Assembly: GCA_017355425.1 (NCBI GenBank)
Contig: CP070233.1
Location: forward strand, 660,501-724,500
Direction of reading: 5' to 3'
Length of the DNA stretch: 64,000 bases
Source of the DNA: Dolichospermum sp. DET69
GTDB taxonomy: Bacteria; Cyanobacteriota; Cyanobacteriia; Cyanobacteriales; Nostocaceae
The notes under the pieces are model-generated. The model was not told where the DNA came from. It worked only from the letters and a program-made list of their open reading frames with translations, and did no database searches. Both the position numbers and the translations under genes were made by a program. Below are positions 1-47,257 of this stretch, piece after piece. Position 1 is the first letter of the stretch, and each line of letters opens with the position of its first letter.

Positions 1-567
1 TGATAACCGAGTTTTACCGAAGAATTTGCCAAAAGTATAAGCACCAATATCAGCAGCCCAAATACATAAAAATGTGAGGATAGTTGCTGTTAAACCTGTT
101 GGGAAAGAAGTAAAATTGCCTTGTCCAATATCTTGCCAATTAGATGGCCAATAACCACCTAAAGGTAAATTACTGCTAATAGTATGTTCAATTCCCCGTA
201 AGCGTACCCAGTAACTTGGTAAGTAACCTACATAAAACAAACCCATAATAGAAGCGGAAATATCAGCAATGGTGGCTAATTTGGGTTGAAAAAGCAGGTA
301 AAAACAAATAAGTGTCCCGGCTATGGGCATAATTGCATCAGCTAAACTACTATTAAGGGTACAAATTGCTAGTAAAACTTGACTAACAATCATAGTAATT
401 TTGACTGAGGGTGTTATGCCTCGAGAACGCACCAAATTAAAATATTCTTGTTGACCTAAAAATACGACAATAGCGATCGCTACTGTAAAATACCAACCCC
501 CTAAGAGGGTTGCAGATAGCGCCATGATAATCGCAATAATTCCACTAATAATTCGAGGCCAGGGCAT
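1..567 (-). CDS. cdsA: Phosphatidate cytidylyltransferase, N-terminal part (cut by window edge)
   Basis: The frame is open from an ATG at 567 down to base 1, giving 189 residues without a stop; the C-terminal catalytic part lies outside the window. The protein starts MPWPRIISGIIAII and is a run of hydrophobic membrane segments, with the motif ADIGAYTFGKFFGKTRLS near the cut end, typical of CdsA. The enzyme is a polytopic membrane protein that makes CDP-diacylglycerol from phosphatidate and CTP for phospholipid synthesis. Upstream, at about 574-611, are short TTTTGGA-type repeats. cbiT follows upstream on the same strand. The family call is by recognition of the sequence; the missing end prevents checking the CTP-binding signature. 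Confidence 0.85.
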   Translation of the reverse strand, partial: MPWPRIISGIIAIIMALSATLLGGWYFTVAIAIVVFLGQQEYFNLVRSRGITPSVKITMIVSQVLLAICTLNSSLADAIMPIAGTLICFYLLFQPKLATIADISASIMGLFYVGYLPSYWVRLRGIEHTISSNLPLGGYWPSNWQDIGQGNFTSFPTGLTATILTFLCIWAADIGAYTFGKFFGKTRLS

Positions 568-633
568 AGGATAGTATTTTGGATTTTAGATTTTGGATTT
601 TGGATTCCATCCAAAACCGAAAACCGAACGAGT

Positions 634-1242
634 TTAATCTAGTTTCTCACCACTGAGAATGAAAATGGGATCGGCTGCTACAAAGGTTTGAGAATAGCCC
701 CGTGTTTCTAAGCGATTTACCGCTGACTGGACAACTTCAATATTCCTAACTCTCAATTGAGAAAAGCTTTGAGAAATAGCATACAGACTTTCTAGACTAG
801 CAGCAGTGGCGACCACTCGGCCAGATGTTGGTAAATATTGCCAGGCAGCTTGGACAATTTCCTGTATGGCTTTTCCACCTTCAATGCAGATCCGATCAGG
901 TAGTAACTTGATTTGATCTAAGCATTCTGGGGCGCTACCTTCAATTACTTCGACGTTTTTGACTTCAAAGCGATCGCAGTTGCGTTTAATTAGATTAGCA
1001 ACATCCTCATCTCTTTCGATAGCAATCACCCGTGCTTGGGGACACAATAAACCCACCTCTATAGGAATTGTACCTGTTCCTGCGCCAATATCCCACAATA
1101 CAGAATCGGCTTGTAGTCGCAATTGGGAAATTAACAGCAATCTTAATTCTCGCTGACTGAGGGGAATACCTGGTAAATTCTCAAATAATTCGTCGGGAAT
1201 ACCTGGGGTAATATAAGGCCAAAGTGGGGAAGGCATAAGCAA
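634..1242 (-). CDS. cbiT: Precorrin-6B methylase, CbiT-type SAM methyltransferase
   Basis: 202 residues. The start of the protein (PGIPDELF, then PLSQRELRLLLISQL) and the SAM-binding motif I WDIGAGTGTIPIEVG at about residues 50-64 are characteristic of CbiT, which methylates C15 of the corrin ring and decarboxylates the C12 acetate during cobalamin synthesis. Acidic loop AIERDED follows motif I, as in class I methyltransferases. Two possible starts lie six bases apart (1242 and 1236). No other cobalamin gene and no cobalamin riboswitch was recognised nearby, so the gene stands alone here. Length matches the stand-alone CbiT form rather than the CbiE-CbiT fusion CobL. Confidence 0.85.
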   Translation of the reverse strand: MLMPSPLWPYITPGIPDELFENLPGIPLSQRELRLLLISQLRLQADSVLWDIGAGTGTIPIEVGLLCPQARVIAIERDEDVANLIKRNCDRFEVKNVEVIEGSAPECLDQIKLLPDRICIEGGKAIQEIVQAAWQYLPTSGRVVATAASLESLYAISQSFSQLRVRNIEVVQSAVNRLETRGYSQTFVAADPIFILSGEKLD

Positions 1243-1329
1243 TTAAAAATTAACAATTAAAATTTAACAGTTGGGAAAGGGGAAGATAATTTTGGTAGTT
1301 ATGCTCATCAATGACATCAGGAAACTGCA

Positions 1330-2769
1330 ATGATGAATAGGGAAATATTAGCCGACCGCTATGAAGTTCAACAACAGCTAGGCAAAAAAGCCGGGAGAAG
1401 GACTTTTTTAGCTACTGATTTAGTAACTGGAAAATCGGTAATTGTCAAGTTACTTGCTTTTAGTAGTGATTTTGAATGGGATGATCTGAAGTTATTTGAG
1501 AGAGAAGCTCAAACTTTAAAATCTTTATCACATCCCTGTATCCCTCTTTACTTAGACTATTTTGAGGTAAATTCCCCTGAATATAAAGGATTTGCCCTTG
1601 TTCAGACTTATATATCGGCCCAAACCATAGAACAATATTTACAAGCTGGGAGGAAATTTACAGAAATTGAAGTTAAAGAAATTGCTAAAGCAGTTTTAGA
1701 GATCCTTAAATACTTGCATGAGTTAAATCCACCTGTTGTCCACCGTGATATTAAGCCTAGCAATATTTTATTAGGAGAGCGCTCTGGCAATAGTATTGGT
1801 ACAGTTTATTTAATAGATTTTGGTTCAGTTCAGACCGTCCTAGCAGCAGAAGGAGGGACAAGAACTGTTGTCGGGACCTATGGTTATATGCCACAGGAGC
1901 AGTTTGGAGGGAGAACTGTTCCTGCTTCTGATCTTTATAGTTTAGGATGCACAATGATTTATTTGGTGACTGGTACTAACCCAGCAGATTTACCCCAAAA
2001 GGATTTTCGCATTCAATTTCAGCAAGTTGCTAATATTAGTCCTAGTTTTGCTAACTGGTTGCAGCGAGTCACAGAACCCAGTTTAGAAAAGCGGTTTTCT
2101 ACAGCAACTCAAGCCCTCACCGCTTTAGAACAGGGAGAGGGAGAACATACCAAAATTACAGCTTTAGCTGTTGGTAAACCAGCAGGTAGTGAAGTTCAAC
2201 TTACAAAAAATCAAGATTTTTTAGAAATTATTATTCCTCCGGTTTGCTCCGAATGCTCAATAGTTTTTTATAATTTGTGTTTTGGCACATTTTTTAGTTC
2301 ATTTGCTTCACTTAGTTTATTATATTTTATTGGCCTTAGTTATTCACATTTTCTCGACAATATAGTTCGCACGATAGGTCTTCTCACGATGCAAGCGGCC
2401 TTGCACTTACCTTTTTTGATTGGAGGATTTTCGATGATCTATTCTGCATTATATCACTTATTTGGTAGTAGCGGGATACATATAGATCAGCAACAAATCA
2501 CCGTTTATAATCTCTTGTGGAAATGGAAAACTCCCCGCAGTCGTTCAGCTTTTAGGAAAAATATTCATAAACTGGTTTATACTCCACAATATTACACTAA
2601 AGGTGAAAAACGATATGGACATCAAGAGCAAATTCTAGTCCCAGCACAATTGGTGATTTGGGCAGGATCTGAAAAATTTGAGTTATGTGTCATTAAATCT
2701 GAAGCAGAATTAGAATGGTTAGCTAGAGAATTGAGTCAGTGGTTAGATATGCCAATTAGAACGCAATAA
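1330..2769 (+). CDS. Serine/threonine protein kinase with C-terminal membrane region
   Basis: 479 residues. The N-terminal 270 or so residues form a Hanks-type kinase: Lys in VIVKLL, catalytic loop VVHRDIKPSN near residue 139, DFG in YLIDFGSV near 163, then activation segment GTYGYMPQEQFGG and a DLYSLGCT helix. All expected catalytic residues are present. After the kinase comes a region with two hydrophobic stretches (about residues 310-375) and a cytoplasmic-looking tail containing IHIDQQQITVYNLLWKWK, a layout common in cyanobacterial kinases whose C-terminal domain lacks a clear function. It is divergent from cbiT and followed 41 bp later by tatA. Substrate unknown. ATG pairs at 1330 and 1333 are both possible starts. 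Confidence 0.85.
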   Translation: MMNREILADRYEVQQQLGKKAGRRTFLATDLVTGKSVIVKLLAFSSDFEWDDLKLFEREAQTLKSLSHPCIPLYLDYFEVNSPEYKGFALVQTYISAQTIEQYLQAGRKFTEIEVKEIAKAVLEILKYLHELNPPVVHRDIKPSNILLGERSGNSIGTVYLIDFGSVQTVLAAEGGTRTVVGTYGYMPQEQFGGRTVPASDLYSLGCTMIYLVTGTNPADLPQKDFRIQFQQVANISPSFANWLQRVTEPSLEKRFSTATQALTALEQGEGEHTKITALAVGKPAGSEVQLTKNQDFLEIIIPPVCSECSIVFYNLCFGTFFSSFASLSLLYFIGLSYSHFLDNIVRTIGLLTMQAALHLPFLIGGFSMIYSALYHLFGSSGIHIDQQQITVYNLLWKWKTPRSRSAFRKNIHKLVYTPQYYTKGEKRYGHQEQILVPAQLVIWAGSEKFELCVIKSEAELEWLARELSQWLDMPIRTQ

Positions 2770-2810
2770 ATTCTCTAGTTAATTACAGTGACTCAAAAAG
2801 GAAAATCATC

Positions 2811-2981
2811 ATGTTTGGATTAGGATGGCCGGAAATAGTGATAATTGCCATAGTTGCAATTTTGATTTTTGGACCCAAGAAAATTCCTGAATTGGGGGGA
2901 GTTTTGGGAAAAAGTATCAGAAGTTTCCAAGAAGGAATGAAAAAATCTGATGAAGATCATAATTCAGACAAAGAAAACTGA
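2811..2981 (+). CDS. tatA: Twin-arginine translocase subunit TatA/TatE family
   Basis: A 56-residue protein beginning MFGLGWPEIVIIAIVAILIF. It has the single N-terminal membrane helix, the hinge FGPKKIPELGG and an amphipathic helix (KSIRSFQEGMKK) followed by a charged tail ending DKEN, the full TatA layout. TatA oligomers form the pore through which TatBC passes folded proteins; in cyanobacteria this works in thylakoid and plasma membranes. A ribosome-binding AAAGGAAAA lies just before the ATG. It follows the kinase gene by 41 bp and may be cotranscribed. Confidence 0.9.
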   Translation: MFGLGWPEIVIIAIVAILIFGPKKIPELGGVLGKSIRSFQEGMKKSDEDHNSDKEN

Positions 2982-3008
2982 GATTAGGTAAAATAACGAG
3001 AAATAATT

Positions 3009-3041
3009 AGATCCCAGACTTTACCAAAAAATCGGGGATCT
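3009..3041 (+). terminator. Hairpin downstream of tatA, possible terminator
   Basis: AGATCCC and GGGATCT pair across an 19-base AT-rich loop and are followed by TTTGTGTTT. The placement 28 bp after the tatA stop suits a terminator, but the stem is only 7 bp. The stem resembles the AGATCCCC family of hairpins seen at 30358-30422 and 56343-56375, so it could equally be a dispersed repeat. Confidence 0.4.
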
Positions 3042-3113
3042 TTGTGTTTAGAATTTGCGAAGAATAGCAATCTATCTTTCTGTAATCGAAAAAATCTGAA
3101 AATTTTTAATTTC

Positions 3114-3815
3114 CTAAATGTCTTCTGTATTCACCCCCAAATCACGTAATTTTTGCGCTAATCTTTCAGCTTTTAATCTTTCTTTTTGCGCTAATTCTTC
3201 AGGAGTTGGTAATCTTTTTCCCTGTTCATCATACCAATACAACCATTCTCGCGTTCGTCCTAAATATGTACCCCGTTCTCTTCCTAATGCTAAACCTATT
3301 TCTGGCATCCATACCGGTGAATTAGGCTGCAAGATATATTCACTATTTTCTAATTTATAAATTTCTAAAGGTTGACGTTTGCGGCGATATTGACGAGTCG
3401 GTACATAAATTGCATAATATAAAATCCCTAATTTCGCATAATCAACTTTCTTTTTTTCATACTCGCCACCATAGGTTTTAGAAACTACTTCTAACGCCAA
3501 AATAGGCGGAATATTATCTTCTTCCCAAAAGACATAACTTAACCGTCCTTCTTCTCCAATAAAGCGTTCTACTCCCAAACTCAAAAATCCATCGGGAACT
3601 AATGCTGGTTGACTTGGTGCGTAGTAAATACCCATATCCACACCGAAAAACCAATCATTACGGTTATTCCAAAACAAAGCTAAAATCGCTTCTAATAAAT
3701 TGGGAATCAGGTTTTGTAGTTCGTTATCCACTGGAGTATCATCAGAGTCAAGAAGTTCGGCGGAAGATGGCAGACATTCACGCAATTGGTAATTTACCAT
3801 AATAGTCTTCACCAT
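3114..3815 (-). CDS. Uma2 family (DUF820) putative endonuclease
   Basis: 233 residues. The core FGVDMGIYYAPSQPALVPDGFLS, then PPILALEVVSKTYGGEYEKK with Asp, Glu and Lys spaced as in the PD-(D/E)XK fold, marks the Uma2 family, which is greatly expanded in cyanobacteria and of unsettled function. The C-terminal part (LAQKERLKAERLAQKLRDLGV) is a charged helix seen in many members. Starts at 3815 and 3800 (MVNYQL) are both plausible. A second Uma2 gene lies at 29728-30315. Confidence 0.8.
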   Translation of the reverse strand: MVKTIMVNYQLRECLPSSAELLDSDDTPVDNELQNLIPNLLEAILALFWNNRNDWFFGVDMGIYYAPSQPALVPDGFLSLGVERFIGEEGRLSYVFWEEDNIPPILALEVVSKTYGGEYEKKKVDYAKLGILYYAIYVPTRQYRRKRQPLEIYKLENSEYILQPNSPVWMPEIGLALGRERGTYLGRTREWLYWYDEQGKRLPTPEELAQKERLKAERLAQKLRDLGVNTEDI

Positions 3816-3847
3816 AACTATGTAAATTTATTTTATCGCCAAAATAC

Positions 3848-4084
3848 TCATACATGATAAGCAGTAATTACCTTTTTTCTATCAGGAGTATAAATAGATT
3901 CTACTATTGGGTATTGTTCATGAACCCACCAAACTTTAATTCTGTTACCTTGTGCTGGAGCAGTTCCTGATATAGAATAACCAGCATCAATCATTAATTT
4001 TTCAAATTGATTTGCATCTAAAATTGTACATTTAAACTTTGGTAGTCCCTCTATTTGATGCTTATTGAGGGTCATAACTACCAT
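3848..4084 (-). CDS. Small conserved-looking protein of unknown function
   Basis: 78 residues; not recognised. It contains KFKCTILDANQFEKLMIDAG and ends with VESIYTPDRKKVITAYHV, soluble with no signal peptide or membrane segment. Its start (4084, or ATG at 4075) overlaps the end of the upstream gene at 4062-4328 by up to 23 bases in another frame, suggesting translational coupling. The compact two-gene arrangement invites a toxin-antitoxin idea, but no motif supports it. Confidence 0.5.
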   Translation of the reverse strand: MVVMTLNKHQIEGLPKFKCTILDANQFEKLMIDAGYSISGTAPAQGNRIKVWWVHEQYPIVESIYTPDRKKVITAYHV

Positions 4085-4328
4085 TATAAGTTGAAAATAT
4101 CTTATAACCTGGTAATACTAAAGCCACACCTAAATTACAGTGAATCTTACCTGGATATCTGTAAGGTTGATCATCAGGAACAGCCCCACCAAACCGAATA
4201 TGTATTCCTGGTAGCCATAAGTAAAATCCAGGAATTAATAAGTCCATACTGTAAGCTATTTCTCTCATTGCTTCATTAGTGAAGTTATTGCTTATCAGTC
4301 TGAAATTGGTGTTTGTAATGTTCAACAT
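4062..4328 (-). CDS. Small protein of unknown function
   Basis: 88 residues, not recognised. It is rich in Gly, Pro and aromatic residues (IPGFYLWLPGIHIRFGG, then DDQPYRYPGKIHCNLGV), predicted soluble. Its 3' end overlaps the start of the gene at 3848-4084, so the two are probably one transcript. The start region MLNITNTNFRLISNNF is less ordered in composition than the rest. Confidence 0.45.
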   Translation of the reverse strand: MLNITNTNFRLISNNFTNEAMREIAYSMDLLIPGFYLWLPGIHIRFGGAVPDDQPYRYPGKIHCNLGVALVLPGYKIFSTYNGSYDPQ

Positions 4329-4589
4329 AAGTTTTCAATCTCCAATTAGAATTGTGACAATAAAAATTAGTGTCAATTAATAATCAAATAAAAATCCTGT
4401 ACATCCTTTCATCCTGGGTATCCTGATTTGTGACAATTTAATTTAGGCATAAATTGGTTGCACTTCAAAGACAAACCGAATACTAGTACACTACGGCGTA
4501 AATAAACCAACCATGATAAATCTCCCAAAAGCCTATACTGTATTCGTTTTGACTTTTGACTTTTGACTTTTGACTTCCGCCCTGCGGTG

Positions 4590-4744
4590 CTAGGATGTTC
4601 ACTTAATCCAAAATCATTGAGATTTTCCCCTTCCAAGTGCAAAGACACTGCTTCAGTCAAATTGCTGACAACTGCATCCAAACTACCACCTTGGGTAACT
4701 ACAGATATTTCTACACATTCTGCAACATAACCAAAATCATAAAA
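4590..4744 (-). pseudogene. hicB-type antitoxin remnant
   Basis: On the minus strand the frame from 4744 reads FYDFGYVAECVEIS, then VVTQGGSLDAVVSNLTEAV and SLHLEGENLNDFGLSEHPS. This is the middle of a HicB/UPF0150-like antitoxin (the part with the EAISLHLEGE motif). There is no start codon: the 5' end stops where the IS605-type end begins (about 4745). The 3' end runs into foreign sequence (GCACCGCAGG, then four copies of the heptamer TTTTGAC at 4546-4577 on the plus strand) and so lacks the usual C-terminal strand. It looks like an antitoxin gene destroyed by the adjacent insertion. Confidence 0.6.
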
Positions 4745-4873
4745 CCTCGTGGGAAGTGGGAAACTCAGTCCCTTTAGGGACCAGAGGGAAGCGGCTCAAG
4801 GGATTTTAATCCCCGTCAATCTTAAAATGTGTAATCGTAGCCATCTTTGCGCTGAATGATTTTGCAATATTTA

Positions 4874-7088
4874 GGTAGAGTCGAGGGGGAATATTATTTC
4901 CCGCCCCTCTCTGTTAAATCTGGGCGTGCAGCTTTCGCTGCACCCAGCTTCCGACGTTCTTAGCTTTTGCGTTTGCTCATGTGAGTATAATCGTGGCAGC
5001 TTTCGTGAATTGCTAGAAGGTTTTTAGGTTTACCATTCTTATGGTTTCCATCTATATGATGTAAATGTACCTTCTCATCATTGAGCAATTTCAGTCCACA
5101 ATGACCACATTTATGGCTTTGCCGTTTAAGGGCTTTAGAGGTATCGTTGTTATAGAGCTTGCTGTTACGCTCGCTCCAATAACTCAAATCTCCGTCGTAG
5201 GGTGATTTCTCACCTTTGACATTGATATGTTTGTTTTCGGAGTAAGGGACTGCTGGGAATGCCTTCTTTATTAGCACCTGGCTAGTAAGGCGGTTCTGTT
5301 TAGTTTCCTTGTTGAATACCTTAAATGCTCTGTGATTGATGTGCCATAGGGAGAACCTTGACCCGTCCATCTTGCAGAAGCGGTGGTAGTTCCTCCAACC
5401 TCTAACTACAGGGGCTAATTTCTCCGCCTTTGTGGTAGCACCATAATTCGAGTTGTTGACGATGTGTTTTACTTTCTTGCGAAAAGCCTTAAAGTTATCC
5501 ACTGAAGGGACACATCTAAACTTTCCGTTTTTCTGGACTTTAAAGTTCCAGCCGAGGAAATCAAACCCATCTGTCGCGGCGGTTAGCTTTGTCTTTTTCT
5601 CGCTGACTTTCATTCCCCGCTCTGCTAGGAACTGACTGATTTTGTCAAGTATTTCTGTGGCATCGTCTTGGGGTCTGAGTATTATTACCATGTCATCCGC
5701 ATAACGGATTGTTGGCTCTATAATCTGTTCCCTTGAGGTTTTGTCTGTAATTCTGTTCTTAGATATCACATGATATCTATGAATACTTTCAATCCCATTT
5801 AAGGCGATGTTGGCTAAAAGTGGACTTACCACGCCCCCTTGGGGTGTTCCTTGTTCAGGAAATTCTGGGTTGACTCCGGCTTTGAGACATCGGAAAATTC
5901 CTTGTCTTATGCTCTTAGGAGCGATGAGTCTATCCATTATGGCAGTGTGGTTTATCCTATCGAAGCATTTCTCGATATCGAGTTCTATAACTCGTTTATC
6001 TTTTCCATTGCAAGCTGAACGTAGATTGTTAAACAGGATTTTCTGTGCATCATGTGCCGAGCGTCCTGTCCTAAACCCGTAGCTGTATGCGTGGAACGTT
6101 GCCTCGTGTGCTGGTTCTAATGCGTACTTGATAAGGCACTGATATGCCCTGTCCGCAATAGTAGGGATTTTCAGTATCCTGGTAGTACCGTCCTTTTTGG
6201 GGATAGGTATTTCTCTTAGCCGCTGGTGTTTCCAGTTGCTAACGGATGCTTTTAGCAGTTCATTAAGCTCGAAGCGTTCCTTAAAGGTAAGGGACTTTTT
6301 GCCATCAATTCCTGCGGTCTTTTTCCCAGCGTTTAGCTGTGATACTTGACGGATAGCCAGTAATCTTGCTGCGGTTGATTTCAGAATCAGCTTTTGTAGG
6401 GACTTTGCTTTACGCTTGTCTCCAACTTGAACCGCTTTATACACTCGTTTTTGTAGGCGGAATAAGTTACGGCGGAATTTCTTCCACGGTAACGTCTTCC
6501 AAGATTCACTAGAGTTGTCTCTGTGTCCAATCATGCTCTGCTCCAATTTGTGTATTCTGAACACCTCAGACCAATTACGGTCTGTCCTACCCGAATTGAG
6601 GGATTTCCGCTGCTCGTCCAGCCTACTTAGGGTTCGACCGCCCTTAGACCATCAACCCGTTTTTATTCGTTCCCTCGGTTGATTGTTAGTTCCGTTAGGT
6701 GTAGCCATTTCAACTATTAGAACCCCTGGACTCTTGCCGATACTTAGTTAAAGGTTCGGCGGGGTTTTTAGCTCTAATGAAGTCAGGTTTTATTGTTGTG
6801 TCCTGCTTAGGCATAAGTTGCTTTTTGAGGCTCTGTTTCACCGTAGGAACTCCCCATTAGCACCAGTGTCACCCCACAACGGATATCTGATTGCGCCCTG
6901 TTCCTAGCTTCGACCTCCCGAAACCGAGTCGGGTCATCGTAGGCAGATAGGGAGTCATACCTGAGTCTGGTAGATGGGACTTACACCCATATCAGACCGA
7001 GAGTTCAACCTTTCCTCTATTACTAGAGTTGGGTTGGTTAGCTTATGTACGGGCTGGATACCGTGATTCAGCTAACAACGAATCGCAC
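4874..7088 (-). mobile_element. Group II intron (copy 1), inside iscB
   Basis: On the minus strand the intron begins GTGCG (7088-7084), the group II 5' consensus, and carries a long structured 5' RNA part (6565-7088, no gene), the reverse transcriptase ORF, then a domain V hairpin at 4916-4950 (CTGGGTGCAGC-GAAA-GCTGCACGCCCAG) and a domain VI stem at about 4875-4913 with a bulged A before CTCTACC. The 3' boundary is set at 4874 because it restores the IscB frame; ending one base earlier (TAC) is the alternative. A near-identical intron is at 44862-47044. HNH-bearing ORF type suggests the chloroplast-like class common in cyanobacteria. Confidence 0.85.
4960..6564 (-). CDS. ltrA: Group II intron reverse transcriptase/maturase with HNH endonuclease
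   Basis: 534 residues, intact. The RT palm motif TIRYADDMVII near residue 288 carries the catalytic Asp pair; earlier RT blocks include GTPQGGVVSPLLANI. Then come the X (maturase) domain, with APVVRGWRNYHRFC, and a C-terminal HNH endonuclease (CGHCG near 475, then HLHHIDGNHKNGKPKNL and HESCH). The protein binds the intron RNA to aid splicing and drives retrohoming by cutting the second DNA strand and priming cDNA synthesis. The copy at 44948-46522 is ten residues shorter, differing mainly after RYHV/RYKD. MIGHRDNSS at codon 11 is an alternative start. Confidence 0.92.
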   Translation of the reverse strand: MFRIHKLEQSMIGHRDNSSESWKTLPWKKFRRNLFRLQKRVYKAVQVGDKRKAKSLQKLILKSTAARLLAIRQVSQLNAGKKTAGIDGKKSLTFKERFELNELLKASVSNWKHQRLREIPIPKKDGTTRILKIPTIADRAYQCLIKYALEPAHEATFHAYSYGFRTGRSAHDAQKILFNNLRSACNGKDKRVIELDIEKCFDRINHTAIMDRLIAPKSIRQGIFRCLKAGVNPEFPEQGTPQGGVVSPLLANIALNGIESIHRYHVISKNRITDKTSREQIIEPTIRYADDMVIILRPQDDATEILDKISQFLAERGMKVSEKKTKLTAATDGFDFLGWNFKVQKNGKFRCVPSVDNFKAFRKKVKHIVNNSNYGATTKAEKLAPVVRGWRNYHRFCKMDGSRFSLWHINHRAFKVFNKETKQNRLTSQVLIKKAFPAVPYSENKHINVKGEKSPYDGDLSYWSERNSKLYNNDTSKALKRQSHKCGHCGLKLLNDEKVHLHHIDGNHKNGKPKNLLAIHESCHDYTHMSKRKS

Positions 7089-8311
7089 TAACTAATGCCC
7101 TGAACTAATTTTGACGCAGAAATATTGAAAGAACCTGTTGCTCTAATTGCAACACGACCAATATATTTACCGATTTTCTTCCCAGTAGTAACAATTGCTT
7201 TCACAATATCACCGGTCTGAAAACCTTTAACAAATTTAATTCTCGGCACATATCGAGATGGAAAACCAAACTTGTCAGTCCGACACATTTGACGAGTTCC
7301 ATGCCCTGTTGCTTTGATTAGCAAAGGCTTGTTCGTTAAAATTTCCAATTCTCCAATTTGTCCAACACAAGCAGCATCTAGCCAATGAGTTTTAGGAAAG
7401 TTTAATCTAGTTCGGTTGAACTTAGTTTGACCACCAGAACCAGTGGAAACGGGTAAACCAGTTTCTTTGAGTCGGCTAAACAATGCCCAACGGGTAGAGT
7501 TCACAGCCGCTGCATCTTTTAAAGGTCGTTTTGCTTGTGCCAGAATACATTTGAGAAGATCCGGTTTCTTAGCCAGGAAGTCTTTAATATCCTGAGTGCC
7601 TTTTTTGATATTGCACTTCTCGCAAGCAAGACAAAGATTAGAAATTCAATTAGTGCCACCTCTGGCTTGAGGATGAATATGCTCAACTTGCAAGGGAACA
7701 TTCTCAATCCCACAGTAAGCACATTTTCTCTGCCATTTTTCTAGTAGATACTCACGGACTTCGTACCCGGACAAAGTGCCTTGCTGATATTCAATACCTG
7801 ATATTTCTGGATTGTCTATTTGTTGCAAGTCAAACCTGACAAGCTCTTGAGATATCCTTGTGATGGGAGCAAACTTAATGAGTTTGTTAACCCAAGTGAA
7901 AGTAGTCTCAACTCGATGCTGCAAACTTGGAGCTAACCAATTTTTTGTCCTAGTTCTATTCAAGAATCTGGCTTGACGATAGCGAGTATGGCGGTTTCGT
8001 CTCCCCCTGCGGAGTGAGCGACGGGATTCTAGGGACGCTTTAATTGCATTTCCTCGATGAGAAAGTTCTCCACCAAAAATGATTTTTTCTCCCTGAATCA
8101 ATGCTATGCCCGTAGTTTTGGAACCAGGGTCTATTTTGAGTTCTATTGGTTGGTTAACAATATCTGAGCATGACTTGTTTAAGATGATAGTAAAGGGATA
8201 CCTCCTAAATAAAGCAGCTTTTCCAGAATCCAATAATTTCCTTGCTACCGAGGGATGACAAGGGCTTAAAGGTTGTTTGTTTGTGTCGAGAACTAATGCG
8301 TAATTTGACAT

Positions 8312-8587
8312 TTCTGCCTCTCTGATTGCTCAGGTGATGTTCGCTTCGACCTTGTTATTTGAGCTTGCTTGAGCTTGCAACACTGTTTCAGTGACTTTAA
8401 AACTGTTTAATTACAAACGACAGAGCGGAAAACTAGCGTCGCATTCTCCGGTGTCTTGACTCAAATAACGGCTACCCTAACCTTCGGTATGCTACGCAAA
8501 CGATTATGCTCAGGGTGGTCTGGTCAGTATAGCTTGCTTGATTACTCTTACAAGCTCAGTGGCTTTAGCCCTGAGTTACTGACCACC
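8312..8587 (-). ncRNA. Candidate omega-RNA locus upstream of iscB
   Basis: IscB guide RNAs are encoded just 5' of the gene. The 276 bases before the iscB ATG hold no gene but several paired segments, including CTCAGGGCTAAAGCCACTGAG (8575-8555) close to the element end, CTTGTAA after it, and further inverted repeats (for example AGCTTGC-type repeats near 8364-8378). The outer motif GGTGGTCA-(G/A)-TAAC, hairpin, GCTTGTAA is shared with the region upstream of isrB (47257-47045). The guide would derive from sequence beyond about 8587. Exact ends are not determinable from sequence alone. Confidence 0.5.
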
Positions 8588-9044
8588 TTGATGAATGATT
8601 GCTGTAATGCTTTCTTTGTTCATATTTGTCAGAATCAGGATATCCAGGATTTGAGGATGTACAGGATTGAATTTTTTAAAAGCTGTTATATATGGGCGAC
8701 ACAGATTCCCACTTTTTTATGATATGTCAATATTGATATTTTGTCAAGTGTTTTTTGGGTAAAAAGTTTGTTGGAATGAGGATTTTTTCAGAAGTTTGAT
8801 TTGGGGGATATGATAATTTTTGGATGTTATATAAATGATGATGTAGCTGATTTTTAAAAGATATGATAGTTAATCAAATAAAAATCCTGTAAATCCTTTA
8901 ATCGGTGGATATCCTGATTCTGACAACATCCTGTAAATCTTCAAATCCTGGGTATCCTGATATGGCTTGCGCCACGCTACGCTATCAGACAGTTAAATAT
9001 TGAGGCGCGGGCAAGATGCCCACCCCACAAGATGATAGAATTAT
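8588..9044. repeat. Gene-free stretch with dispersed AATCCTG repeats
   Basis: No gene seen. Copies of a dispersed repeat built around AAAATCCTGTAAATCC and GGATATCCTGATTCTGAC lie at 8635-8675 (inverted) and 8875-8965; relatives are at 4381-4440 and 48266-48309. A short palindrome-like GCGGGCAAGATGCCCACC at 9006-9023 belongs with similar motifs at 39876-39892 and 52818-52835. Confidence 0.6.
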
Positions 9045-10526
9045 CTAAACTACAACCTTTTCTAAAATCAATTTAGAGCGCTTCATTTTTTCAGGAATAG
9101 CAACAGGATAATCACCAGTAAAACAAGCCGAACAGAAACTATTAGTATCTTCTCTGGTTGTTTCTAGCATTCCTTCCCAACTCAAATAAGCCAGACTATC
9201 AACTTGTAATTGTTTGGCTATTTCCTCGACTGATTTTGTCGCTGCAATTAATTGATCTTGGGTATCGGTATCAATCCCATAGAAGCAAGGATGAGTTACA
9301 GGAGGAGAAGAAATTCTCATGTGGACTTCAGCGACACCAGCATCACGCAAGGCCTGCACGAGTTTACGGCTAGTAGTTCCCCGGACGATGGAATCATCAA
9401 TGATTACTACTCGCTTACCGAATAAGACATCTTTGAGGGGGTTGAGTTTCATTTTAATCCCTGACTCCCGCATGGCTTGGGTAGGCTGAATAAAGGTGCG
9501 GCCGACGTAGCGATTTTTAATCAGTCCTTCACCATAAGCAATACCAGAAGCTTGGGAATAACCAATGGCCGCAGGGATACCAGAATCAGGGACACCGAAT
9601 ACTAAATCAGCTTCTACAGGAGCTTCTGCCGCCATTTTTCGTCCTAAGCGCATTCGATAACTGTATAAAGTTTCGTTGTGCATGAGGCTATCAGGACGAG
9701 CAAAATAGATCATTTCAAAGATACAAAGTTTGCGTTCTGGCTGTTGATGCCACTGAAATGATTCTAAACCAGTTTCTGTAATCCACACTAATTCCCCAGG
9801 GGCGACATCCCGCAGATATTCTGCACCGATAATATCTAAACCGCAAGTTTCGGATGCGAGAACATAACGCAGAGGTTCGCTATCTAACGTACCAATTACT
9901 AAGGGACGAATCCCGTTAGGATCACGGACTCCCATCACACCTACGGGTGTACCAATAGTCAGGCTAAATGCTCCATCGCAACGATGAAAGGCACTGATAG
10001 CTCCTGTTACCCAATCTGCACCGGCGTTGACTTCCTGAGCGATCGCATAAGCAATCATTTCTGAGTCGGTGGTCGTGATTAAGTTAAACTTATCTTTAAG
10101 TAACTCTTCTCGCAGTTTTACAGTATTGACTAAATTTCCATTATGTGCTAGAGCCAATAAACCTAAACGAGTTTCCACCACAGCAGGTTGGGCATTAACT
10201 CTGCGACTAGAACCGGTAGTGGAATAGCGAGTATGTCCAACTGCCAGATTTCCGGGTAATTGATCTAAGATGGTTTCATTGAAGACTTGAGACACCAAAC
10301 CCATATCTTTGTGCTGGTGAACGTGGGGACCTTCAAAGGTAGCAATCCCAGCAGATTCTTGACCCCGGTGCTGAAGCGCATACAATCCAAAGTAGGTCAA
10401 TTTAGCAACGTCTTGTTCTGGGGCGTAAATGCCAAATACACCACAAGCCTCTTCTGGCTTGTCAGGGCGATCTTCATCACTGTTAATTGGGTTGTTGGCA
10501 ATTTCGGGGTATTCAATGGGAATCAT
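9045..10526 (-). CDS. purF: Amidophosphoribosyltransferase
   Basis: Catalyses the first step of purine synthesis, making phosphoribosylamine from PRPP and glutamine. The N-terminal glutaminase begins with Cys in EEACGVFGIY after a short propeptide and is followed by LYALQHRGQESAG; the phosphoribosyltransferase part has the PRPP loop VVIIDDSIVRGTTSRK. The ATG at 10526 (MIPIEYPEIANN) is chosen because GGAG lies 10 bases before it; an upstream ATG at 10559 would run into GGGAACA-type heptamers. purL lies 210 bp upstream on the same strand, the usual cyanobacterial order. Confidence 0.95.
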   Translation of the reverse strand: MIPIEYPEIANNPINSDEDRPDKPEEACGVFGIYAPEQDVAKLTYFGLYALQHRGQESAGIATFEGPHVHQHKDMGLVSQVFNETILDQLPGNLAVGHTRYSTTGSSRRVNAQPAVVETRLGLLALAHNGNLVNTVKLREELLKDKFNLITTTDSEMIAYAIAQEVNAGADWVTGAISAFHRCDGAFSLTIGTPVGVMGVRDPNGIRPLVIGTLDSEPLRYVLASETCGLDIIGAEYLRDVAPGELVWITETGLESFQWHQQPERKLCIFEMIYFARPDSLMHNETLYSYRMRLGRKMAAEAPVEADLVFGVPDSGIPAAIGYSQASGIAYGEGLIKNRYVGRTFIQPTQAMRESGIKMKLNPLKDVLFGKRVVIIDDSIVRGTTSRKLVQALRDAGVAEVHMRISSPPVTHPCFYGIDTDTQDQLIAATKSVEEIAKQLQVDSLAYLSWEGMLETTREDTNSFCSACFTGDYPVAIPEKMKRSKLILEKVVV

Positions 10527-10559
10527 GCTGGTATTGCTCCTGGTGGGGTGTCGAGTCAC

Positions 10560-10607
10560 TGGGAATGGGGAACAGGGAAGAGGGAAGAGGGAACAGGGAA
10601 CAGGAAA
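10560..10607. repeat. GGGAACA/GGGAAGA heptamer tandem repeat
   Basis: About six imperfect heptamers (GGGAATG, GGGAACA, GGGAAGA) between purL and purF, directly upstream of the purF start. Such short tandem repeats are common in Nostocales intergenic DNA. Confidence 0.75.
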
Positions 10608-10736
10608 TAATTAATTTTCCTCCTGATTCCTATCTTCTTAACAAATCTTTAACCATCCATTAAAACAGTATCGTAAATTGGTCAAGGATTAAGTGTAAAT
10701 TGTAAATTTTCTTCAATCCTTGGTTTTTGATATCTA

Positions 10737-13169
10737 TTAGGTATTAGTGTAGATAGCGAGACGTTTAGCGATCGACTGAGAATAGCTATCGTTCATATCT
10801 TCAAGACTAATCTGGAGTAATTTGTGGTTATCAGCCGTTAAAATTGCCAAACTAGCAGAATTAGCCACTGTTCCCAATTTTTGCCAACTCTCTGGTAAAT
10901 GTTCCTGTAAATAGGATTCCCATTTTTCTTGGTTTTCTTCACTCACAGAAACTAAAATTCTTGCCCCACCTTCACCAAATAGCACTTCGTCAAAGCGGGA
11001 ATCGTGATTTGCAGAAATCGGGAAATTAATCTCAGCACCCAAATTTCCCGAAAGACAAGATTCCGCTATAGCTACAGTTAAACCACCTTCAGCCGAATCA
11101 TGGGCAGAATTTACCCAACCTGCGCGAATCCCTTCACGACAAGCTTTTTGTACCCGACGTTCTAAATCAAAATCAACTCTTGGTGGTTTTCCAGCAATAG
11201 TTTTATGAATAGTTGCCAAATATTCAGAAGCACCCAATTCAATTGTAGATATTTTGGCCGCCTTTTCTAGATGAGACTCTATAGCCCCCCTTTCTAAGGG
11301 GGGTTGGGGGGATCTCCATTGCACAGGTAAACCCAAAAGGTAAATTACATCCCCGACATTTTGCCAACCTTGTCCGCAAATTTTGGTTAAATCAGGAATC
11401 AACCCCACCATACCCACAACAGGAGTCGGGTAAATTGGTTGAGGATTACCTTGGGCATCAAAAGTTTCATTGTAGAGAGAAACATTTCCCCCAGTTACTG
11501 GCGTTCCCAACTCACTACAACCCTCGCTCAAACCCCGACAAGCGGACGCTAATTGCCAATAACCAATGGGTTTTTCTGGGCTACCAAAATTGAGGTTATC
11601 CGTCACCGCAATGGGTTCAGCACCCACACAACTAAGATTCCGAGCAGCTTCTGCTACCACTGCCTTAGCCCCTTCATAAGGATCTAGATAAACATAACGA
11701 GAATTACAATCTACCGTCGCTGCAACCCCCGATTTTAGATTTTGGATTTTGGATTTTGGGGTTCGGGGTTCTTCTAAAGGACGTAAACGAATAACAGCCG
11801 CATCTGCACCACCGGGTAACAATACGGTATTATTCTGAACTTGATGGTCATATTGGCGATAAACCCAGCTTTTAGAAGCAATGGTAGGAGTATCTAGCAA
11901 AGTCAATAGAATATCATTCCAACTTTGCAAACTTCCCGCAATCTCAATACCTGCAACAGTACAAGAAGGTAAACTATCACTTGTCCATGTCCAAGCTTTT
12001 TGGGCATATTCGGGGGGTTCTGCTAATAATTCCCGTTCATACAAAGGCGTATTTTCTGCTAAAGCATCAGCCGGAATTTCTGCGGCAATTTCCCCTTTAA
12101 ACCAAATCCTGACAATGGGTTCTTCTATTACCGTACCGGCAACTACCGCTTGTAGTCCCCAACGGTGGAAAATATCAATTAATTCCTGTTCTCGTCCCTT
12201 ATGGGCAACAAACAACATTCTTTCTTGAGATTCCGAAAGCAGATATTCATAAGGTATCATTCCCAATTCCCGGGCTGGAATTTTATCTAAATCGAAATCA
12301 ATGCCGACTCCACCTTTAGCAGCCATTTCGGAAGTTGAACAGGTAATACCCGCAGCACCCATATCTTGTGCCGCAACTACAGCCCCGGTTTTAAATGCCT
12401 CTAAACAAGCTTCAATTAAAGATTTTTCTACAAATGGATCTCCTACTTGGACAGCAGGACGATTATCCATTGATTCCTCGGTTAATTCGGCACTGGCAAA
12501 ACTTGCGCCGCCCATGCCATCTCTTCCGGTGGTTGAACCCACATACAGCACGGGATTTCCTAAGCCTGAAGCCCCTGATTTGACAATTTCCGACGTTTCC
12601 ATCAATCCTAACGCCATGACGTTGACAAGGGGATTTCCAGAGTAAGCAGGGTCAAAATACACTTCACCACCCACGGTGGGGACTCCAACGCAGTTGCCAT
12701 AATGGCTTATGCCTGCTACAACGCCTGCAAACAATCTTTGGGTTTTGGGATCATTCAAATCTCCAAAGCGAAGAGAATTTAATAAAGCTATGGGACGCGC
12801 CCCCATTGTAAAGATATCTCTGAGGATACCACCAACTCCGGTGGCTGCTCCTTGGAAGGGTTCAACGGCAGAAGGGTGGTTATGGGATTCTATTTTAAAT
12901 GCTAATTGTAGTCCGTCGCCGATATCCACAACTCCGGCATTTTCACCAGGTCCGACGAGAATGCGGGGTCCTGTGGTGGGAAACTGTTTGAGTAAGGGGC
13001 GGGAATTTTTATAACAGCAATGTTCTGACCACATCACCCCAAACATACCTAATTCGGCTTTGTTGGGATGGCGACCTAGGCGGCGGACAATTTCGGTATA
13101 TTCGTCTGGTTTGATGCCTTCTGAGGCTATTTCTTGGGGAGAAAAGGGATTTTCTGAGGTGGTTGTCAT
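10737..13169 (-). CDS. purL: Phosphoribosylformylglycinamidine synthase, large subunit (PurL)
   Basis: 810 residues, the small-type PurL that works with PurS and PurQ to make FGAM from FGAR, ATP and glutamine. Recognisable blocks: [61 protein letters not shown] and [12 protein letters not shown]. Two in-frame insertions of intergenic repeats are visible: [15 protein letters not shown] (from a palindromic repeat at 11283-11315) and [11 protein letters not shown] (from AATCCAAA-type repeats at about 11730-11774). Both sit at places where family members have no such sequence and probably form surface loops; together they account for the slightly long protein. purF follows downstream. Confidence 0.95.
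11283..11315. repeat. Palindromic repeat inserted in frame in purL
   Basis: AGCCCCCCTTTCTAAGGGGG followed by GTTGGGGGGATCT. The same unit occurs twice, inverted, inside the MITE at 20199-20353. In purL its length keeps the frame open and encodes [11 protein letters not shown]. Confidence 0.75.
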
Positions 13170-13274
13170 GGCAGTTATGCACCAAGGGGACAGAGGAATA
13201 TTCTATCTTTTTTGACGCAGTTCTGATATTTTCATCCAATTACATTTTTTTTACTAGGTTATAAATAAAATCAT
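13170..13274. other. Short gap upstream of purL
   Basis: AT-rich, no gene; presumably contains the purL promoter, but no convincing -35/-10 pair was identified. Confidence 0.4.
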
Positions 13275-13898
13275 CTGAACTATGATTTTTGTGATTTTTG
13301 TGATTAAGATGATTTTTTTAACATTATGTTAATTTGACTATTTAAACAAAAACTTCTACTTCCTGGGCGATACTTGTCGGTTGAGGAATTGGTAAACCTT
13401 CTTCTATTAACCCTTCAATATGAAATTCTTCTGAACTATGATTTTTGTGATTTTTGTGATTAGGATGATTTTTTCAACATTATGTTAATTTTACTATTTA
13501 AACAAAAACTTCCACTTCCTGGACGATAGTTGTAGTTCGAGGAATTGGTAAACTTTCTTCTATTAATCCTTCAATATGAAATTCTTCTGAACTATGATTT
13601 TTGTGATTTTTGTGATTAAGATGATTTTTTCAACATTATGTTAATTTTACTATTTAAACAAAAACTTCCACTTCCTGGACGATAGTTGTAGTTCGAGGAA
13701 TTGGTAAACTTTCTTCTATTAATCCTTCAATATGAAATTCTTCTGAACTATGATTTTTGTGATTTTTGTGATTAGGATGATTTTTTCAACATTATGTTAA
13801 TTTTACTATTTAAACAAAAACTTCCACTTCCTGGGCGATACTTGTTGGCTGAGGAATTGGTAAACCTTCTTCTATTAACCCTTCAATATGAAATTCTA
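13275..13898. repeat. 156-bp tandem repeat built from the hicB 3' end
   Basis: CTGAACTATG recurs at 13275, 13431, 13587 and 13743, exactly 156 bp apart. Each unit has a spacer (GATTTTTGTGATTTTTGTGA, ATGATTTTTT, ACATTATGTTAA) followed by a copy of the last 90 or so bases of hicB including its stop. Copy 4 runs into the real hicB and stops matching at about 13895, where GAAATTCTTCTG becomes GAAATTCTATGG. Copies 2 and 3 share variants (GGACGATAGTTGTAGTTCG) that differ from copy 1 and from hicB. None of the fragments has a start codon. Confidence 0.9.
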
Positions 13899-43740: not shown

Positions 43741-44854
43741 TTAATGGCTCGATGCCGTTAGATTAAACATTCTCCGAGTTGACAACACGATTAAACCCGT
43801 GTTTCGCTTAATCAATCGGACTTTTTTAGCTGTACATTGTCCTAATCGTTTCCAGTTGGAATCACTAACTGAAACTTGTTTTTCCGTGTCTCCACTAACC
43901 CAACCAAAAAATGTTTTTTGGCCTTGGGTAGCTTCCACAAAATCGCCTTTTCTAAATCCATGCCTCGTAGTAGTTCCACCATATTTACGTCTATTCCCAC
44001 ATGAAGAGAAAACCATTAAATGTAGTTGCCTACGACTAATTGGAGGACGACGCAAAATAGTAAATTGCGACCCAGTAATAGTGACGTTACCTATCCAAGA
44101 CGCACCATGAGTTTTTGTTCCTTCCCATATTTTGTATTCAACAAACTGTGAACAAGCTAAAGTAACTGCATCAACCGCATGAGTTTCTGGAATTTGTAGA
44201 GACTTATCGGATTTTTCTTTGTATAAACCCAAGTATTTACGAAGATTCGATGTTTCCCATCCTTTCCTTAATTCTACTTTTGCTAGTTCAGATAATCGAT
44301 CAATTTGATATCTTTGACCTACCATTACTGGACTAAAACTCTTGTTTCCTCTTGCCTCAACCTCTTCAATGACAATTGTTTTTACTGGGTAGATTTCACA
44401 CAATAAAATTATTACTCTATATTCTAGGTCTTTGTTAGCTCGAATGCTTGGAGGAAGTTTAGAACCCCGACGATTATCAAATCTAACTTGACGATGGCTA
44501 CGTTTACTGAATGATAATTTCCGATTAATTCGTCTACCACGTCTTCCACGTCTCATGATAGCTCTTTGCTCCATTCTGTCTTTGACTGTTTTAAATGGAA
44601 GAACTAGGTGCAACATTTGTAGTGTGTATTTTTCTGATTGAACTGCTATACCAGAAAACATTTTTCCTTTCTTCTAATCCAATGACGATTTCTTGAGCTT
44701 TTGTGTTAGATGGTTCAGCTATTAACTGGACATAAAAAATACCTAACTTATTAAATTTACCAATTGCAATACCAGTTTTAATCCAACGTCTAGCGCGACT
44801 AGGTTTTGTTGGCATTAATGGAACATTATCTACTGAAATTACGGGTACTCGCAT
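43741..44854 (-). pseudogene. isrB: IsrB (RuvC-only IscB relative), frameshifted
   Basis: Start MRVPVISVDNVPLMPTKPSR then ARRWIKTGIAIGKFNKLGIF is the PLMP/RRXRR domain. The frame breaks near 44672 in GAAAGGAAAAATG: one extra base, in the A run, separates EIVIGLEERK from MFSGIAVQSEKYTLQ. The second frame has the bridge helix (RRGRRGRRINRK), RuvC-II (TIVIEEVEARG) and RuvC-III (PETHAVDAVTLA), then a C-terminal barrel (RHGFRKGDFVEATQ). There is no HNH between RuvC-II and -III, which defines IsrB. The RuvC-I position reads GLEER where relatives have G-(I/L)-DPG, so the catalytic Asp is also lost. Ends at 43741. Confidence 0.82.
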
Positions 44855-44861
44855 AAAGAGA

Positions 44862-47044
44862 GGTAGAGTCGAGGGCGGGTATTATCCCGCGCCCCTCTCT
44901 GTTAAATCTGGGCGTGCAGCTTTCACTGCACCCAGCTTCCGATGTTCTTAGCTTTCGTTTTTGCTCATGTGAATATAATCGTGGCAGCTTTCATGAATTG
45001 CTAGAAGGTTGTTTGGTTTCCAATTGTTATGATTGGCATCAACATGATGTAAGTGTACCTTCTCATCATTGAGCATTTTAAGACCACAATGACCACATTT
45101 ATGGCTTTGCCGTTTGAGGGCTTTAGAGGTATTGTTGTTATAGAGCTTGCTGTTACGTTCGCTCCAATAACTTAAATCTCCGTCATAAGGTGATTTCTCA
45201 CCTTTGACATTGATGTGTTTGTTTTCGGAGTAAGGGACTGCTGGAAACGCCTTATCTAGTAATTGCTTACTGGTATAGCGATTCTGTTTAGTTTCCTTGT
45301 TGAATACCCTAAATGCTCTGTTTTGGATGTGAAATAACGAGTTTCTTGACCCGTCCATCTTGCAGAAGCGGTGGTAATTCCTCCAGCCTCTAACTACAGG
45401 GGCTAATTTCTCAGCCTTTGTGGTAGCACCATAATTCGAGTTGTTGACGATGTATTTTACTTTCTTGCGAAAAGATTTAAAATTGTCCACTGATGGAGCG
45501 CATCTAAACTTCCCGTTTTTCTGGACTAAAAAGTTCCAGCCGAGGAAATCAAACCCATCTGTCGCGGCGGTTAGCTTTGTCTTTTTCTCGCTGACTTTCA
45601 TTCCCCGCTCTGCTAAAAACTGACTGATTTTGTCAAGTATTTCTGTGGCATCGTCTTGAGGTCTGAGTATTATCACCATGTCATCCGCGTATCGGATTGT
45701 TGGTTCTATTACTTTACTTCCGGCATCTTTATATCTGTGGATGCTTTCAATGCCGTTTAAAGCGATGTTAGCTAGTAGTGGACTTACCACTCCGCCTTGA
45801 GGCGTTCCCTGTTCAGGAAATTCTGGGTTGACTCCGGCTTTGAGACATCGGAAAATACCTTGTCTTATGCTCTTGGGAGCTATGAGTCTATCCATGATGG
45901 CGGTGTGGTTTATCCTATCAAAGCATTTTTCGATATCGAGTTCTATAACCCTTTTATCTATTCCATTTCGCGCAGAGCATAGGTTTATGAACAGGATTTT
46001 CTGTGCGTCATGCGCTGAACGTCCCGTCCTAAACCCGTAGCTCCTAGCATGGAAGGTTGCCTCGTGCGCTGGTTCTAATGCGTATTTGACAAGGCATTGG
46101 TAAGCTCTGTCTGCAATAGTAGGGATTTTCAGCATCCTCATCGTACCGTCCTTTTTGGGGATGGGTATTTCTCTTAGTTCCTGGTGTTTCCAGTTGCTAA
46201 CGGATGCTTTTAGCAGTTCATTAAGCTCAAAGCGTTCCTTAAAGGTAAGGGACTTTTTGCCATCAATTCCTGCGGTCTTTTTACCAGCGTTTAGCTGTGT
46301 TACTTGACGGATAGCCATTAATCTCGCTGCGGTTGATTTCAGAATCAGCTTTTGTAGGGACTTAGCTTTGCGCTTGTCTCCAACTTGAACCGCTTTGTAC
46401 ACTCGTTTTTGTAGGCGGAATAAGTTACGGCGGAATTTCTTCCAGGGTAAGGTCTTCCAAGATTCACTAGAGTTGTCTCTGTGTCCAATCATGCTCTGCT
46501 CCAGTTTGTGTATTCTGAACACCTCAGACCAATTACGGTCTGTCCTACCCGGATTGAGGGAATTCCGCTGCTCGTCCAGCCTACTTGTAGGGTTCGACCG
46601 CCCTTAGACCCTCAATCCGTTTTTATTCGTTCCCTCGGTTGATTATTAGTTCCGTTAGGTGTAGCCATTTCAACCACTGGAATCCCTGGACTCGTACCGC
46701 TATGGGACTAAGATGCGGCGGGAATTAACTCCAATGAGGTCGGGTTTTTTGTATTGTGTCCCGCCTCTCGATAAGTTGCTTTTCCAGGCTCTGTTTCACC
46801 GTGGGAACTCCCCATTAACGCCAGTGTCACCCCACAACGGATGTCTGATTGCGTCCTGTTCCTAGCTTCGACCTCCCGAAGCCGAGTCGGGTCATCGTAG
46901 GCAGATAGGGAGTCATACCTGAGTCTGGCAGATGGGACTTGCACCCATATCAGACCGAGAGTTCAACCTTCTTCTATTGCTAGATTGGGTTGGTTAGCTT
47001 ATGTACGGGCTGGATACCGTGATTCAGCTAACAACGAATCGCAC
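44862..47044 (-). mobile_element. Group II intron (copy 2), in the isrB locus
   Basis: Starts GTGCG at 47044 (minus strand) and carries the same architecture as copy 1: 5' RNA part with no gene (46523-47044), RT ORF, domain V hairpin at 44904-44939 (loop GAAA) and a domain VI stem ending CTCTACC at about 44862. 2183 bp. Exon junctions: upstream CCAAGGATTA, downstream TCTCTTTATG; splicing would place AAGGA ten bases before the isrB ATG. Only TTA at the upstream junction is shared with copy 1. Confidence 0.85.
44948..46522 (-). CDS. ltrA: Group II intron reverse transcriptase/maturase with HNH endonuclease
   Basis: 524 residues, intact, near-identical to the ORF at 4960-6564. YADD catalytic motif in TIRYADDMVII, GTPQGGVVSPLLANI, maturase domain, and C-terminal HNH (CGHCG, HLHHVDANHNNWKPNNL, HESCH). 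It differs from copy 1 by a shorter linker before the palm (RYKDAGSKVIEPTIRYADD) and scattered substitutions, so the two copies are not a very recent duplication. Both should be able to support splicing and mobility. Confidence 0.92.
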   Translation of the reverse strand: MFRIHKLEQSMIGHRDNSSESWKTLPWKKFRRNLFRLQKRVYKAVQVGDKRKAKSLQKLILKSTAARLMAIRQVTQLNAGKKTAGIDGKKSLTFKERFELNELLKASVSNWKHQELREIPIPKKDGTMRMLKIPTIADRAYQCLVKYALEPAHEATFHARSYGFRTGRSAHDAQKILFINLCSARNGIDKRVIELDIEKCFDRINHTAIMDRLIAPKSIRQGIFRCLKAGVNPEFPEQGTPQGGVVSPLLANIALNGIESIHRYKDAGSKVIEPTIRYADDMVIILRPQDDATEILDKISQFLAERGMKVSEKKTKLTAATDGFDFLGWNFLVQKNGKFRCAPSVDNFKSFRKKVKYIVNNSNYGATTKAEKLAPVVRGWRNYHRFCKMDGSRNSLFHIQNRAFRVFNKETKQNRYTSKQLLDKAFPAVPYSENKHINVKGEKSPYDGDLSYWSERNSKLYNNNTSKALKRQSHKCGHCGLKMLNDEKVHLHHVDANHNNWKPNNLLAIHESCHDYIHMSKNES

Positions 47045-47257
47045 TAATCCTTGGAGTAAAAGTTTAAGTCCCCTCGCCCAACTAATCCAAAATGTCTTGG
47101 CTCAACCCAACGACTAAACAAATAGTCTTGCAGATAATCCAAACTGGGGAAGTATTTGGAAGTGCGTGTCAGGATTAGTCTCAAATGGGCTAGTCAAACA
47201 CGTAATTTTTGTTAATTACAAGCCCCATCCTTCTTCAAGGTGGGGTTATTGACCACC
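47045..47257 (-). ncRNA. Candidate omega-RNA region upstream of isrB
   Basis: Non-coding exon side of intron 2. It begins (minus strand) with GGTGGTCAATAAC, a CCCCACC...GGATGGGG hairpin and GCTTGTAA, paralleling the iscB upstream region, and ends with GTTGGGCGAGGGGACTTAAA and CCAAGGATTA next to the intron. In IsrB/IscB systems the guide RNA is encoded here; the intron now separates it from the nuclease gene. Confidence 0.5.

Follow-up and report, generated by a model that had tools for sequence, protein, structure and literature searches.

The locus described here raises the question of how a group II intron came to lie inside an iscB gene, and whether production of an RNA-guided nuclease depends on its splicing. 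The window, a stretch of 64,000 nucleotides of Dolichospermum sp. DET69, contains the features listed below. The reading we prefer, with a probability of about 0.9, is that a mobile intron retrohomed into iscB, that splicing would restore the C-terminus of the protein, and that a separate nonsense codon disables the nuclease product.

4737..8583, minus strand: whole iscB element (omega-RNA and iscB) with the intron inside; ends inferred from the DNA matches of relatives
8334..8583, minus strand: HEARO / IscB omega-RNA (RF02033, 137.4 bits, E 1.8e-28)
7089..8311, minus strand: iscB exon 1, start at 8311 (PF14239 RRXRR, E 8.9e-76), with an in-frame TGA at 7648-7646
4822..4873, minus strand: iscB exon 2, consisting of the third base of a split Tyr codon, 16 codons and the stop
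4874..7088, minus strand: group II intron of 2,215 bases (GTGCG...CTCTACC), inside iscB in sense orientation
4875..4952, minus strand: domains V and VI (RF00029, 52.3 bits, E 2.1e-7)
4960..6564, minus strand: reverse transcriptase/maturase ORF of the intron, 534 aa (PF13655, PF00078 and PF08388 over their cut-offs)

The host is recognizable as an IscB (OMEGA nuclease) element by the omega-RNA upstream of iscB and by a protein of the RRXRR/RuvC and HNH type, with RRXRR above the cut-off in exon 1. The frame of the window copy is not intact (TGA at 7648-7646), and because this codon splits the HNH domain, Pfam reports HNH only in the unbroken paralogue L036 and not in the window copy. When five iscB loci of the same genus were compared with positions 1-14000 of the window, the DNA matches began at 8583 and ended at 4732-4737, which places the right end of the element at about 4737, where the matches of the relatives cease; the copy in G240 matches the element in two gapless pieces (1495 and 137 bases). 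Since similarity stops at the ends of the element, the elements of these relatives appear to occupy other places. An interruption of the omega-RNA by the intron was considered and rejected, given that this RNA lies upstream of iscB. The original prediction had set the usual residence of group II introns in mobile elements against residence in a nuclease gene, a contrast that does not apply here because iscB itself belongs to a mobile element.

That the insertion is a group II intron, as predicted, was confirmed by the RF00029 match and the reverse transcriptase ORF, in which RVT_N, RVT_1 and GIIM all score above their cut-offs, and it lies in the sense orientation of iscB. Together with the GTGCG start these features indicate a probably self-splicing intron of the mobile type. 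Exon 1 ends with GGC ATT AGT TA at 7089 and the intron starts with GTGCG at 7088, so that in the unspliced gene its first G completes a TAG stop. The 3' boundary required more care. Group II introns are known to end in AY; the intron in the window ends in CC and thus does not conform strictly to the GUGYG...AY pattern. The source genome yielded 29 matches to the intron, 23 of them full-length, and all 23 start with GTGCG and have CTCTAC followed by a C, past which the sequences diverge. All of 53 further copies and of 60 named copies terminate in C as well, with an AC end in 11 of the 53 (CC in the other 42) and in 8 of the 60. An intron-free isrB-like copy, L040 (AAGGATTA|TCTCTTTATG), is 98.6% identical over 1399 bases, with one gap, to the joined flanks of the second intron in the window, and both this copy and the empty sites of iscB lack the base corresponding to 4874. 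We therefore take 4874 as the last base of the intron, since the C is common to all copies and absent from the isrB-like and iscB empty sites. The RF00029 alignment stops at 4875, and if splicing followed this Rfam-predicted end, between 4875 and 4874, the product would read TAC TAA, an immediate stop, leaving the tail unrestored. Against such a splice point, which we regard as extremely unlikely, stand the extra C in 23 of 23 copies of the source genome, its absence from the intron-free sites, and the observation that retaining it shortens the frame in all 16 loci of one list, by only a few codons in L015, L136 and L044.

Joining 7089 to 4873 yields a frame that ends ...GISYKYCKIIQRKDGYDYTF-stop, exon 2 running from 4873 to the terminal TTT TAA at 4822. 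With the joined tail as query, 92 of the 208 family genomes searched gave matches, the closest being from the same genus. The joined exons align without gaps over 1274-1275 bases with the uninterrupted iscB genes of G229 (97.6%), G168 (97.1%), G240 (95.2%) and G381 (94.5%), and exon 2 by itself is likewise gapless against uninterrupted genes. Each of these four genes has a single stop, at its end, and the terminus ISYKYCKIIHRKDGYDYAF, which differs from the tail of the window copy by two residues. The fifth iscB of the genus, in G128, matches across the junction; it is damaged upstream and has no match over a segment containing the TGA position. Six uninterrupted iscB paralogues are present in the source genome, of which L036 aligns through the block and ends in GIGHKNCICVHKKDGYSYSN; in the remaining five, the similarity is limited to the extreme end, DGYSY or DAYSY. 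The coordinates of gene and intron and the join proposed at 7089/4873 thus proved correct in the light of the intron copies of the genome and the empty sites. Restoration of the C-terminus by precise removal was borne out by the four gapless relatives, and the comparison with uninterrupted homologues, which had been named as a check, showed that the closest of them keep the tail block with two changes.

When all copies of the intron family were pooled, the outcome was less uniform. Exact removal produced frames of at least 200 codons in 10 of the 23 copies of the source genome, compared with 2-7 for shifts of 1-3 bases. Among the 53 other copies the figure was 21, as against 11-21 for the shifts, the +3 shift equalling exact removal. 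Within one list, exact removal gave the longest frame at every one of 16 loci, and it did so at two of three additional loci; the exception is L147 (the same place as L049), where a +1 shift gives a frame of 130 compared with 111. L124 was outside this test.

Although splicing would restore the tail, the product is predicted to be defective. The in-frame TGA at 7648-7646 lies within the HNH domain and ends the iscB frame after 221 codons, and the stop-free frame that a spliced RNA would carry across the junction comprises the last 202 codons only. At this position a sense codon is found in all six paralogues of the genome, which contain repeats of each other, and in all four close relatives that have the segment. 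With this separate nonsense codon, splicing alone cannot, as read from the DNA, give full-length IscB from the window copy. The original prediction, in which expression of the nuclease would depend on the reverse transcriptase of the intron, had missed the TGA, and a splicing-dependent working nuclease at this iscB is not supported. The idea that the intron gates functional IscB production from this locus has in its favour that frame and tail are precisely restored, that the nonsense codon is known from one assembly, and that the codon changes private to the window copy (4 amino-acid and 8 silent, counted where the four relatives agree and without the TGA codon) resemble those of intact relatives, so that any decay of the gene would be recent. 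Nevertheless, a TGA within HNH where six paralogues and four close relatives carry a sense codon makes this very unlikely. As for splicing itself, 22 full-length copies exist in the genome besides that of the window, and frames of at least 551 codons are open in 20 of the 23; since most copies have such long frames, reverse transcriptase help in trans from other copies is possible.

The route of arrival can be approached through the pairing of the intron with its target, for which the following elements were located.

7095..7100, minus strand: IBS2 (GGGCAT) in the 5' exon; 6/6 pairs with 6814-6809, one of them G-T (hand count and best register)
7089..7094, minus strand: IBS1 (TAGTTA) in the 5' exon; 6/6 pairs with 6750-6745
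6809..6814, minus strand: EBS2 (ATGCCT), a loop that varies among the 23 aligned copies and covaries with IBS2
6745..6750, minus strand: EBS1 (TAACTA), a variable loop that covaries with IBS1

The introns are conserved apart from some variable parts, to which the two EBS loops belong, and both loops pair with the exon as expected of a group II intron that is mobile. Of 102 EBS1-IBS1 positions in 17 distinct intron/site pairs, 92 were paired, compared with 48.5 +/- 5.4 for shuffled sites, none of 20,000 of which reached this value; for EBS2-IBS2, z was about 7.5 at the best register scanned, with 300 shuffles each. Pairing of EBS1 is poor in two of the 23 copies (L022, 2/6; L023, 4/6). L018 was left out of the EBS1 count, its 0/6 being explained by a 5' flank that is another intron. 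An identical intron (L001, G000:C2:196686-198900, on the second contig) occupies a relaxase gene (Pfam Relaxase) at the target sequence shared with iscB, AGGGCATTAGTTA|TAAA, and its exact removal restores a relaxase frame of 557 codons. In L022, an intron lies in sense orientation in hsdM, flanked by HsdM_N and N6_Mtase, and a frame of 631 codons is restored, whereas the antisense intron of L023 lies within a frame of 766 codons that looks hsdM-like by eye.

The sequence itself shows the insertion, both of its boundaries, the pairing and the restoration of the frame. From these data we infer site-specific retrohoming as the most likely route, because both EBS sequences match the target by base pairing and because divergence is much lower among the introns than among the hosts. 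A mobile group II intron whose reverse transcriptase frame is open would have been guided by EBS1 and EBS2 base pairing to a conserved coding sequence, Gly-Ile-Ser-Tyr-Lys, close to the 3' end of iscB. Splicing would join 7089 and 4873 without loss or gain and so return the IscB C-terminus; with the nonsense codon elsewhere, the spliced product of this gene should be no working nuclease. In the source genome, the intron family would often home to multi-copy genes of RNA-guided nucleases, namely iscB, isrB-like and tnpB. A second member is present in the window, in front of an isrB-like gene.

44862..47044, minus strand: second intron of the same family (copy L019), a full-length match with RF00029 at 44863-44940
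47062..47253, minus strand: HEARO-like RNA of the isrB-like element (RF02033 in L019; E 4.8e-8; 51.8 bits, short of the gathering score of 83)
43741..44854, minus strand: isrB-like ORF, frameshifted, its RRXRR match split over two frames

The difference in age between introns and hosts is apparent from several pairs. In the two iscB copies L002 and L003, the introns differ by one base and the exons by 16 of 522 (Fisher p 3.6e-11). The introns of L018 and L019 show no difference in 2183 bases, with 233 differences in 1042 bases of their isrB-like flanks, and three isrB-like copies carry, at the identical position, introns with 0-3 differences in 2183 bases, while the downstream flanks are 9.5-22% apart. 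Young introns in older hosts fit repeated retrohoming better than copying together with the transposon, although gene conversion or segmental copying could also leave introns more alike than their hosts. If the intron were instead a passenger, an old insertion would have been copied along with the transposon with no repeated homing. Some intron-bearing nuclease copies are indeed partial duplicates: the homology of L003 begins inside iscB, and in G286 the loci L090 and L094 have a 5'-truncated tnpB, identical upstream flanks of 1500 bases and the intron. Such passive copying is difficult to reconcile with near-identical introns at the same position before isrB-like flanks so far apart, with an isrB-like copy that lacks the intron yet is 98.6% identical to a filled copy, with the relaxase gene filled by the iscB-type intron, or with the empty site in four iscB copies of the same genus, and we consider it clearly improbable. 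In L003 itself (G000:C1:2116713-2121926), the 5'-truncated iscB begins sharply at the equivalent of window position 7505, fused to a preceding frame of sigma-70 region 4; here gene and intron may have been copied as one.

Nine of the 23 copies of the source genome lie in or just before nuclease genes (two iscB, one tnpB and six isrB-like, including a tandem pair). A rough estimate of chance gave p of about 3e-10 for 8 of 22 places and about 4e-5 for 4 of 15 lineages, assuming a nuclease share of the genome of roughly 1.4% and lineages of our own definition, and ignoring selection against insertions into other genes. A high general rate of nuclease hosts was rejected, the count outside the source genome being 10 of 93 distinct flank pairs. 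There, among the copies listed, 11 of the 93 pairs span a reference protein, ten of them tnpB and one of resolvase type (L124), with no iscB and no isrB-like gene. The reference proteins (19 tnpB, three iscB and one isrB-like frame) all come from the source genome, so that distant nucleases may be missed. L011, L015 and L019 are included among the spanning copies, as the stop-to-stop reference frame extends upstream of the isrB-like start. All 18 listed copies that span a reference protein (7 in the source genome, 11 in others) lie in sense orientation, and restored frames with the expected domains include a tnpB of 400 codons (L005), an isrB-like gene of 407 (L013) and a tnpB of 388 (L086).

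Outside the source genome, this census covers the two candidates scored in each of 388 genomes of the order and 80 of 310 relatives kept in the search for related loci. From a first set of 93 loci 17 were dropped (16 partial introns, and L085 with no match); from the 80 named loci 20 without both boundaries were dropped, and six of the 60 kept have no usable flank on one side. The exact pattern of the iscB junction had no matches in the genome contigs searched, which possibly did not include the source genome. The pattern of the 5' junction in iscB matched three times in 217 genomes of the family, always in the source genome (two iscB, one relaxase), and that of the isrB-leader junction matched at 12 places in eight of 208 family genomes, four of them with the GTGCG start, all in the source genome. 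Within these pattern searches, no genome other than the one under study showed this intron at the iscB site.

In the account of Mohr, Ghanem and Lambowitz (2010, PMC2882425), the group II introns of Thermosynechococcus elongatus are divided into families by EBS sequence, three introns of family F4 occupy a conserved site in ISEL1, an element of the IS200 family, and twintrons with identical inner introns in diverged hosts are ascribed to recent independent insertion. The same argument is applied here to the Dolichospermum introns, and the behaviour of the intron at iscB is a clean example of this already-known kind. In contrast to ISEL1 as described there, the hosts here are iscB, isrB-like and tnpB genes, with several coding sites and long frames restored. 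A cyanobacterial group II intron that interrupts a gene is also described from Trichodesmium, where, according to that report, a conserved cellular protein-coding gene is the host and splicing in the cell was shown (PMC4649490); the iscB intron, by contrast, has a mobile element as its host, and its splicing is predicted from sequence. In the descriptions of IStrons, a group I intron has an IS605-like element at its 3' end (PMC4227781, PMC3073962). Both arrangements combine a self-splicing-type intron with a similar transposon in one unit, but the intron at iscB belongs to group II, encodes a reverse transcriptase of its own and lies inside the transposon gene; an identity as IStron was therefore rejected, no group I fusion being present. 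A literature search of titles and the beginnings of abstracts, with subscription journals mostly outside its reach, returned no group II introns inside iscB, isrB or tnpB.

It is tempting to see in these loci a lasting partnership of group II introns and OMEGA transposons, with iscB, isrB and tnpB as preferred sites and unbroken nucleases made only or mainly after splicing. We regard this as a doubtful proposition that is more probably wrong than right; if true, the maturase of the intron would gate RNA-guided DNA cutting. Because some intron-bearing nuclease genes of the source genome have no other frame break, splicing-dependent nucleases are better sought there than in the window. Candidates without another break are tnpB in L005 (G000:C1:3817192), isrB-like in L013 (G000:C1:1611633) and, in G286, tnpB in L086 (G286:C1:5541110) and L129, among others, and these name loci at which nuclease production should depend on splicing, judging by their frames. 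The comparison of occupied with empty sites of one element, for iscB within a genus and for the isrB-like gene within one genome, offers a clean natural experiment on the choice of mobile elements as refuges by group II introns.

The isrB-like genes show some peculiarities of their own. Their name is in keeping with RRXRR without an HNH match in four frames, one of them partial. Five of the six isrB-like loci of the genome carry the intron, and in L015, L017/L018 and L019 it sits in the leader outside the ORF. In the window, the HEARO-like RNA ends, according to the Rfam model, 17 bases before the second intron, the start codon follows 7 bases past it, and the frame changes about 190 bases downstream of the intron junction. 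At L017/L018 (G000:C2:68991-73356), two identical introns are arranged head-to-tail before the isrB-like gene, the second beginning directly after the last C of the first. At L011 (G000:C1:3695104-3697316), the intron has the isrB leader site on its left and the coding site of L013 on its right, an arrangement that would result from loss of the intervening piece by recombination between two introns.
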